From NCBI GenBank assembly GCA_028818225.1, contig JAPPOG010000004.1, positions 1-64,000 of the forward strand: a DNA stretch of 64,000 nucleotides, in the 5' to 3' direction. The notes below the pieces were generated by a model. That model saw only the letters and a program-made list of their open reading frames with translations. It ran no database searches and was not told the origin of the DNA. A program made the translations under genes and the position numbers. This document shows positions 15,931 to 44,532 of the stretch, piece by piece. The stretch comes from Gammaproteobacteria bacterium (lineage in GTDB: Bacteria > Pseudomonadota > Gammaproteobacteria > Pseudomonadales > Pseudohongiellaceae). Each line of letters begins with the position of its first letter. Position 1 is the stretch's first letter.

Positions 15931-16413
15931 ATGACAATCCAGGTTGGAGATAAAGTCCCTGCAGCTAATTTCAAAGTCATGACTGCCGATGGGCCTAAAG
16001 ATATGAGTAGTGACGAGGTTTTTGGCGGCAAGAAAGTGGTTTTCTTTGCAGTCCCCGGGGCATTTACGCCTGGATGCTCGATGACGCACTTACCCGGATT
16101 TGTAGTAAATGCTAATGCAATCAAGGCCAAAGGCGCGGATACTATTGCCTGCATGGCAGTGAATGATGCCTTTGTAATGGGAGCCTGGGGCCAGGCTCAG
16201 AATGCCGAAGAAATTCTGATGCTGGCAGATGGCAATGGTGAATTTACCAGCGCACTTGGCCTCGAGTTGGATGCCAGTGGATTCGGAATGGGGAGTCGGG
16301 CCCAACGCTTTGGCATGATTGTCGATGATGGCACCGTTACCTATCTGGGAATCGAAGCACCGGGGGAGATCAAAGTCAGTGCTGCGGAAGCAATGATGGA
16401 AGCATTGGGTTAA
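15931..16413 (+). CDS. Peroxiredoxin, Prx5/AHP type (cysteine form)
   Basis: 160-aa cytoplasmic peroxidase. The peroxidatic Cys is residue 49 in VPGAFTPGCSMTHLPG, the Prx5/AhpC-like TxxC context; the Arg of the active site lies in MGSRAQRFGMIVDDG. It starts at ATG 15931, which gives the normal MTIQVGDKVP N terminus; the open frame upstream is not family-like. It probably reduces hydrogen and organic peroxides with glutathione or thioredoxin. Dienelactone hydrolase follows 51 nt later. Compare the selenocysteine-type peroxiredoxin at 40913. Confidence 0.94.
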   Translation: MTIQVGDKVPAANFKVMTADGPKDMSSDEVFGGKKVVFFAVPGAFTPGCSMTHLPGFVVNANAIKAKGADTIACMAVNDAFVMGAWGQAQNAEEILMLADGNGEFTSALGLELDASGFGMGSRAQRFGMIVDDGTVTYLGIEAPGEIKVSAAEAMMEALG

Positions 16414-40764: not shown

Positions 40765-40912
40765 AGAGTAAAGCGCGTTAAGACTCAAAAACTAACCGAA
40801 ATAAGCGGTTTTCAGCCAATTTTGCTGGAAATTTAGGCTCACAAAAGGTACAAAAGAATCCGCTGAAACGGGCGATTCTCGCTTCAGCCTCTAACTATAA
40901 CTGGAGGAGATT

Positions 40913-41455
40913 ATGTCTCAATTTGCCAATCGGCTTGCTCGAGTCCTGCTGTCCGCTTTAGTGGCAGTACTGGCGCTTGGGAGTCAGTTTGCGGCAGCTC
41001 TGGAAGTCGGTGATAAAGCACCGGATTTTTCGCTGCAAGCTTCAGATGGCGAAACCTACACGCTTTCCCAGTTCGCTGGTGATAAGCCTGTGGTGATTGC
41101 TTTCTTTCCCAAAGCCTTTACCGGTGGCTGAACTATGCAATGTAAAGCGCTGCGTGACAGTGCCAGAGAAATTCAGAGTTTCGACGTTGCATACTTTATG
41201 GCCAGCGTAGATACGCTGGAAGACAACACAGCTTTTGCGGCTGAGCATGAAGCTAATTTTCCAATCCTAGCGGATCCAAACAAGGAAATGACTGGTGAGT
41301 ACGATGTTTTGATGGAAGTCGGCTTCGCCAATCGCTGGACGTTCTATATTGATACGGACGGCACTATCCTTAAGATCGACAAGGAAACCAACCCGGCAAC
41401 GGCGGGACGAGACCTGGTAGCCAATATGGAGGAACTGGGTTTCAACAAGATCTAG
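40913..41455 (+). CDS. Exported peroxiredoxin with in-frame TGA, candidate selenoprotein
   Basis: Thiol peroxidase-type protein of 180 aa, read through one TGA (41129-41131). Signal peptide [20 protein letters not shown]... ends near [23 protein letters not shown] opens the Prx domain and [13 protein letters not shown] precedes the TGA. Family members have Cys there (FTPGC-type), so TGA codes for residue 73, Sec in place of the peroxidatic Cys, followed by [10 protein letters not shown] with a resolving-type Cys at 77. Both halves are in the same frame with no other lesion. A GGAGGAG ribosome site precedes ATG 40913; a SECIS-like hairpin and a terminator follow. A pseudogene is the alternative. 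A second start at ATG 41135 would miss the active site. Confidence 0.82.
41129..41193 (+). promoter_or_regulatory. Candidate bacterial SECIS element
   Basis: Core hairpin GCGCTG (41147-41152) with CAGTGC (41158-41163), six pairs including one G-U, closes the pentaloop CGTGA. The loop GU (41154-41155) lies 23-24 nt after the TGA, the spacing reported for SelB-binding bacterial SECIS hairpins such as that of E. coli fdhF. An outer pairing TATGCAA (41134-41140) with TTGCATA (41187-41193) encloses it. The structure was found by eye and its stability was not computed. Confidence 0.62.
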
Positions 41456-41479
41456 TCAGCTAGATTAACAAGTTCCATC

Positions 41480-41515
41480 AAAACCCGATCATCGAATGAT
41501 GGTCGGGTTTTGTTT
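41480..41515 (+). terminator. Rho-independent terminator after candidate selenoprotein
   Basis: 14-pair stem AAAACCCGATCATC / GATGGTCGGGTTTT with a GAAT loop and one G-U pair, followed by GTTTT. It lies 24 nt after the stop of the peroxiredoxin gene, so the gene ends its own transcript. Confidence 0.9.
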
Positions 41516-44262: not shown

Positions 44263-44532
44263 TTATCGACCACCAGTAAGGTCGATTATTGTCCCGGTTG
44301 CGCAAGAAGAAGCGTCCGCCGCCAGCCAGTAGATGCCTGCTGCCACGTCGGCTTTTACGCTGATATATGGGGCGCCCCGGGCTTGTACCTTTTGCTTGCG
44401 ATTGTTAGCAGCTTCTCGGTTGCTGCGATAATTAATACAGATTGAGTAAGCATTTTTAGCAAATAGTCTTGCTCTGGCAGCACCAATTCCCTGACTGCTC
44501 CCCGTTATAACTACGATTGGATTGCTGCTCAT
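44263..44532 (-). pseudogene. Remnant of an SDR oxidoreductase with a large internal deletion
   Basis: The 89-aa frame begins as a classical SDR (VVITGSSQGIGAARARLFAKN, cofactor motif) and reads normally through YISVKADVA, then jumps straight to the C-terminal end (AGIYWLAADASSCATGTIIDLTGGR). About 160 residues, including NNAG and the YxxxK catalytic motif, are missing, and the frame is kept. It cannot be an active SDR; it is a deletion remnant. Confidence 0.85.

Follow-up and report, generated by a model that had tools for sequence, protein, structure and literature searches.

The window, by which we mean the whole 64,000-nucleotide stretch of DNA analysed here, carries on its plus strand at 40913-41455 a gene of 180 residues that very probably encodes an exported, periplasmic selenocysteine (Sec) peroxiredoxin of the BCP/PrxQ/AhpE type, whose in-frame UGA would be decoded through a SECIS element and for which we propose a mechanism below. 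The frame runs from an ATG at 40913 to a TAG at 41453-41455 and contains exactly one TGA, at codon 73 (41129-41131), which the frame and the alignments lead us to read as Sec in the peroxidatic position of the motif PxxxTxxU. A Shine-Dalgarno-like GGAGGAG (40903-40909) precedes the gene and an intrinsic terminator-like hairpin of 15 bp, followed by a T run, lies 3' of it (41479-41512), both on the plus strand. An earlier sequence-only reading had described a single TGA at the peroxidatic cysteine of an otherwise intact peroxiredoxin, with a strong ribosome site upstream and a terminator behind; its coordinates and frame are exact and both flanking signals are there. The Pfam domain AhpC-TSA spans the TGA (residues 32-153, E 2.4e-32). 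When all TGA-readthrough frames of the window with at least 35 codons before and at least 45 codons after the TGA were counted (n = 40), 40913-41455 was the one frame in which no open reading frame (ORF) of at least 130 amino acids covered more than 40% of the length, and this count, together with the retention of the TGA in relatives, excludes a chance origin of the split frame. The gene is almost certainly intact, with the stop signal re-read as a selenium-containing amino acid. Because the TGA lies inside the frame, standard gene callers would split the gene in two.

The TGA is conserved in relatives. An orthologue is present in 17 of the 19 genus genomes (the window's own included), each with TGA at codon 73, and none was found in the genus genomes G008 (65% complete) and G017 (92% complete). 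Further, among named gammaproteobacterial loci, taken as the best 80 of at least 572 confirmed stretches, 79 have TGA as codon 73, one (L118) has TGC and none of the 80 has TAA or TAG; this set and the genus set overlap in their genomes and are not independent. An even draw from the class gave a match at 1e-30 in 5 of 369 genomes, with the TGA in the own genome, G360 and G342 and none in G050 and G198. The gene is present in many marine gammaproteobacterial assemblies. Cys relatives (L034, L035, L121 and L122) have a Cys codon at the site, and the own copy shows no decay of the kind that would mark a broken cysteine gene: pairwise comparison with the window gives a median dN/dS of 0.076 before the TGA (47 of 77 pairs usable) and of 0.068 after it (23 of 75 usable). 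The Sec-for-Cys substitution suggested by the sequence-only reading is thus supported by the selenocysteine genes described below, the conserved TGA, the Cys of the relatives and purifying selection.

A rebuilt tree of 81 rows (76 Sec and 5 Cys, with the long-branched PrxQ row L036 left out) requires two Sec/Cys changes, and the long branches of L123 and L035 make Sec gains and losses indistinguishable on it. Row L118 (PAFU01000022.1) is a Cys form that lacks the CGUG loop and the frozen SECIS codons described below, and its genome retains selB, so it is possible that this lineage switched from Sec to Cys without losing the Sec trait. One genome, G002, has two copies of the Sec peroxiredoxin (contigs C60 and C72; L074 and L105), one of them cut by a contig end. 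The structure alignment comprises the window protein and 28 of the best 80 named loci. The frame of L111 contains a second stop; this row and L107 were left out.

The machinery for Sec insertion is encoded in the genome that contains the window (3.47 Mb in 89 contigs, 97.5% complete). We found selB (398 bits against a cut-off of 242) and selA (581 bits) on contig C17, and selD (281 bits) and a tRNA-Sec gene (selC; anticodon TCA, 62 bits) on contig C28. Absence of these genes had been named beforehand as the result that would speak against a selenoprotein, and with every one of them present that objection falls away. The selD sequence lies within an 815-residue frame (C28:67000-71500, minus strand, L125). 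Its N-terminal part, unscanned, has the look of an NADH dehydrogenase, so that the whole resembles an Ndh-SelD fusion; such a fusion is described for marine bacteria in the accessible text of PMC2398784. A survey of selB against codon 73 covered 25 entries, of which G410 duplicates G012 and G404 duplicates G360, leaving 23 distinct genomes. It found selB above the cut-off in 14 of the 16 genomes with TGA, in 2 of the 5 with Cys and in 1 of the 2 that lack the gene. The TGA genomes without selB above the cut-off are G400 and G406, for both of which completeness was not given. We therefore rejected the idea that selB strictly accompanies the TGA form, since it is found in 14 of the 16 TGA genomes but in 2 of the 5 Cys genomes as well.

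Downstream of the UGA, a hairpin of 6 bp with a CGUGA loop (41147-41163, plus strand; loop 41153-41157) is a putative bacterial SECIS, for which fold, covariation, frozen codons and the occurrence of CGUG in other UGA genes all argue. The bacterial SECIS model, in the part of PMC13188914 accessible to us, allows a loop of 3-9 nt, a stem of 4-16 bp, a spacing of 16-37 nt and a minimum free energy of -7.5 kcal/mol or lower, and also asks for a G in the first two loop positions. The window hairpin lies inside all of these limits, with a 5-nt loop, a 6-bp stem, a position 21 nt past the UGA and an energy of -7.9 kcal/mol, and has a G followed by U at loop position 2. Its energy in the window sequence alone is not significant (z -0.26, with 73 of 200 shuffles equally good), so it is conservation, covariation and the shared loop that make the case for a SECIS. 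An Rfam scan of the window gave no match, which is uninformative as Rfam was not confirmed to hold a general bacterial SECIS family.

The codons that overlap the hairpin are nearly frozen. Codons 79-83 show zero synonymous differences across the 17 genus rows, where 7-codon windows have a median of 0.51, and codons 80-82 read CTG-CGT-GAC in 79 of 79 TGA loci from the best 80, where the mean relative synonymous entropy is 0.05 for codons 79-83 against 0.81 for 38 other conserved codons. The SECIS alignment comprises 44 distinct N-free rows of these 79 loci plus the window and L123 (L074 and L107 contain N, and 33 rows duplicate a listed row). Over 45 distinct rows, 96.7% of the hairpin cells are paired, with the outermost pair broken in 7, and seven cells covary on both sides, a number matched by none of 500 shuffles. 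These two-sided changes fall on 2 of the 6 pairs, which 13 of 500 shuffles reach, and in the distant row L123 the closing pair is swapped from G-C to C-G. Control hairpins slid along the alignment pair between 3 and 57% of their cells; the +3 slide comes close in covariation score (0.120 against 0.138 for the hairpin), yet only 56.7% of its cells pair. Together, these comparisons provide strong evidence that the hairpin after the UGA functions as a bacterial SECIS.

The same loop recurs in other UGA genes of the genome. A second selenoprotein candidate (C89:27400-29600, minus strand; L124:206-1426) combines an AhpC/TSA domain bearing ADWUPYC with a C-terminal DsbD_N-like domain, and its N-terminus, hydrophobic by eye, suggests that it is probably exported; the accessible text of PMC9402790 reports a fusion of a Prx-like UxxC protein to pfam11412. 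Counted from the UGA, CGUG starts at nt 24 in this gene and in a third candidate, compared with nt 25 in the window gene. The third candidate (C88:3-614, minus strand; L128) is a DsbA-family protein with DYUPWCY, which we take to be FrnE-like, and has one TGA in 11 of 11 matching genomes (19 searched, the own included). For the C89 type, we examined 15 stretches (the own and 14 relatives) and found CGUG at nt 24 in 12 of 12 with a UGA-x2-Cys site. This site was not seen in L145, and L140 (G017) and L143 (G013) hold a different gene of UGA-Gly-Cys type, again with CGUG at nt 24, in which an AhpC/TSA-like reading, KAPDFELMGRDG, stands just before UGA-Gly-Cys; it resembles the UGC-containing Prx-like family named in the accessible text of PMC2398784. 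Of 11 loci of the C88 type, 10 have CGUG at nt 24, the exception being L164, and only 3 of the 10 stretches that were folded attain -7.5 kcal/mol; a few rows of the C89 type and of the C88 type have some other structure as their lowest-energy fold. By comparison, the window contains 2157 TGA triplets, and 8 of these, with the peroxiredoxin gene counted in, are followed by CGUG at 24 or 25. As the C89 protein is a distant homolog of the window protein, its loop may be shared by descent, and the C88 gene belongs to a different family. The near-equal spacing of CGUG across these UGA genes supports decoding by one SelB.

These data bear on three readings in which the UGA would not encode Sec. The TGA lies a single step from the TGC or TGT of the Cys relatives, as it would after a nonsense mutation or sequencing error in an ordinary Cys peroxiredoxin, and yet the identical codon recurs in 79 of the best 80 loci, which come from many assemblies, and in 17 of the 19 genus genomes, never replaced by TAA or TAG in those 80, while purifying selection continues past the TGA and the SECIS codons are frozen. 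We consider this explanation refuted by the conservation of the TGA, with next to no probability left to it. It is also very improbable that the locus yields two products, a short exported peptide ending at the UGA and a second protein restarted at codon 75, for which the window does offer an ATG (41135). Just 62 of the best 80 rows have ATG at that codon, others having, for instance, GCC, AGG or CAG, which speaks against a restart; moreover, two products would part a single Pfam domain and leave the SECIS and the Sec machinery unexplained. Finally, the frame would be just as open if this genome had reassigned UGA, for instance to Trp, or read through it in general. Against this, all but one of the window's 40 readthrough frames are largely covered by another ORF, a Sec system is present in the genome and the aligned residue in relatives is Cys rather than Trp, and we regard a general readthrough as extremely improbable.

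The protein is almost certainly a selenocysteine peroxiredoxin, with peroxiredoxin motifs and a predicted peroxiredoxin fold. The peroxiredoxin motif PxxxTxxU is complete (P66, T70 and U73) and is accompanied by R141. Residue 73 aligns with a Cys of Mycobacterium tuberculosis AhpE that is presumably its peroxidatic Cys, and the invariant Arg141 (41333-41335, plus strand), the expected catalytic arginine, aligns with a conserved AhpE Arg. The AlphaFold model has a pLDDT of 89.6 with a predicted helix at the N-terminus, and the best solved neighbors found for it by Foldseek are Sulfolobus Bcp1, M. tuberculosis BcpB and AhpE. A cysteine four residues after the Sec, Cys77 (41141-41143, plus strand; U-x3-C), is present in 79 of 79 readable rows of the best 80 named loci (one has TGN) and also in the aligned Cys relatives, and this conservation makes Cys77 the likely resolving residue. 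PrxQ proteins are defined by a CX4C resolving cysteine, at +5, as found in the PrxQ-like row L036; the window protein, with its Cys at +4, falls outside this definition. It also reaches no NCBIfam model at its cut-off, scoring 82.7 bits against 140 for NF006960 (the E. coli-type BCP equivalog) and 45 bits against 270 for NF040737, which from its name we take to be the PrxU family, and for this reason we infer that it has probably been annotated as a truncated protein or missed. The protein does show the features that mark the marine 'Prx' selenoproteins, namely a PF00578 domain and T70-G-G-U73; the motif PxxxTxxC/U is named in the accessible text of PMC13188914.

The protein is probably exported to the periplasm, judging from hydropathy and a cleavage motif. 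Residues 1-29 (40913-40999, plus strand) form a predicted Sec-type signal peptide with an AAA cleavage site before LEVGDKAP, as indicated by hydropathy, motif and alignment. N-termini of relatives likewise have positive residues, a hydrophobic stretch and mostly an A-x-A ahead of the mature core. A simple hydropathy rule accepts 81 of the 83 sequences, though it is a loose one that 18 of 45 window ORFs of at least 200 amino acids also pass; its two failures are a start-picking error (L088) and a row just under the limit (L095). In 69 of the 83, an A-x-A or A-x-G falls in the nine residues that precede the core. Neither a Cys lipobox nor a twin arginine was seen in the window protein. The signal peptide proposed from the sequence alone is thereby borne out to the extent that a signal-peptide-like N-terminus is kept in relatives. 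The sequence-only reading had further set an exported enzyme beside a cysteine Prx5 at 15931 in the window, with the idea that Cys and Sec enzymes may share out the compartments between them, and a Cys Prx5/Redoxin is indeed encoded there.

A different interpretation of the same data is that this selenoprotein of peroxiredoxin fold is anchored in the membrane, or acts mainly as a thiol-disulfide or other reductase, rather than as an exported peroxidase. The N-terminus is a predicted helix whose signal cleavage is likewise a prediction, U-x3-C is unlike the CX4C of the PrxQ row L036 and the scores stay below the NCBIfam peroxidase cut-offs, all of which would fit such a protein. On the other hand, a cleavage-type A-x-A/G motif stands in 69 of 83 relatives, and PxxxTxxU and Arg141 of peroxidatic peroxiredoxins are retained, so we hold this interpretation to be unlikely.

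For the exported Sec peroxiredoxin we propose the following mechanism. During translation, SelB would bind the SECIS hairpin with its CGUGA loop, 21 nt beyond UGA codon 73, and bring Sec-tRNA-Sec to this codon, and Sec would thereby occupy the peroxidatic position. The protein would exit via the general secretory route with its signal peptide cleaved after about Ala29. In the periplasm, the selenolate would attack hydrogen or organic peroxides and be converted to a selenenic acid, Cys77 would condense with the selenenic acid to a selenenylsulfide, and this in turn would be reduced by a thioredoxin-fold partner fed by DsbD/ScsB. The gene's neighbors, a protein with weak TPR matches, a DUF3014 protein and a rhodanese, have relatives around the gene in 59, 58 and 55 of the best 80 named loci, respectively, and include no obvious redox partner except possibly the rhodanese. 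Also in the window, an 89-residue ORF on the minus strand (44263-44532) starts and ends like a short-chain dehydrogenase by eye and is probably a decayed remnant of one. Electrons might come from a DsbD-like protein encoded elsewhere in the genome, on contig C13, which has two DsbD_N stretches, a DsbD_TM and a thioredoxin domain. More speculatively, members of the OM182/Pseudohongiella group might share a periplasmic selenium-based peroxide defence in which electrons pass from the DsbD/ScsB-like C13 protein through the probably exported C89 UPYC/DsbD_N-like selenoprotein candidate to the Sec peroxiredoxin, with the UGA genes examined here decoded by one SelB that reads the CGUG apical motif; we offer this larger scheme as a tentative idea that is more apt to fail than to hold.

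Several known systems resemble parts of this proposal. The window protein shares its fold with BCP/PrxQ and AhpE proteins (Sulfolobus Bcp1, 3drn; M. tuberculosis BcpB, 5epf; AhpE, 1xxu; Foldseek E about 1e-15 to 1e-16), along with the PxxxTxxC pattern and the catalytic Arg, but differs from them in having Sec for Cys, a candidate resolving Cys at +4 rather than the +5 of the PrxQ row L036, and probable export. PrxU of Eubacterium acidaminophilum is, by the title of Sohling 2001, reportedly also a peroxiredoxin with Sec, and the window protein scores 45 bits against the 270 required by NF040737. Cho and others in 2012 are said to have described a Cys-based peroxiredoxin in the cell envelope of Caulobacter that is reduced by ScsB, a DsbD-like protein; it is likewise an extracytoplasmic peroxiredoxin, a likeness that we draw from descriptions rather than from compared sequences.

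Closest in kind are the marine Sec 'Prx' proteins (pfam00578/COG1225), which in the accessible text of PMC1088965 and PMC2398784 share with the window protein the AhpC/TSA domain, a TxxU Sec, a bacterial SECIS and a marine origin. The earlier claim that such selenoproteins are known from bacteria and marine metagenomes agrees with those sources, which give 43 Prx selenoproteins with TXXU from the Sargasso Sea (PMC1088965) and 253 with the motif TxxU from the Global Ocean Sampling (GOS; PMC2398784); Prx TxxU also appears in the accessible parts of PMC13188914 and PMC9312934. By these descriptions, and not by compared sequences, the marine accounts in PMC1088965 and PMC2398784 are without export or a signal peptide, a host clade or U-x3-C. 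Within the accessible text, the term 'signal peptide' is absent from all four papers and 'periplasm' from PMC1088965, PMC2398784 and PMC13188914, occurring twice in PMC9312934 in other contexts. Some of the Sargasso and GOS sequences may belong to the same subfamily as the window protein. Since Prx TxxU selenoproteins are on record, a Sec peroxiredoxin is a known kind of protein, to which we add probable export, U-x3-C and a host clade that is probably near the OM182/Pseudohongiella group. A literature search beyond whose reach most subscription journals lay found no paper that joins Sec peroxiredoxin export, or selenoproteins and DsbD, in the periplasm, and none that joins OM182 with selenocysteine or Pseudohongiella with selenoprotein.

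The occurrence of CGUG in several families of UGA genes provides a testable rule of SelB recognition for the remaining selenoproteome of this clade. Selenols are easily oxidized, and this peroxiredoxin is probably made to work with one in the oxidizing cell envelope, which raises the questions of how its Sec would be kept reduced there and what it would gain over Cys.
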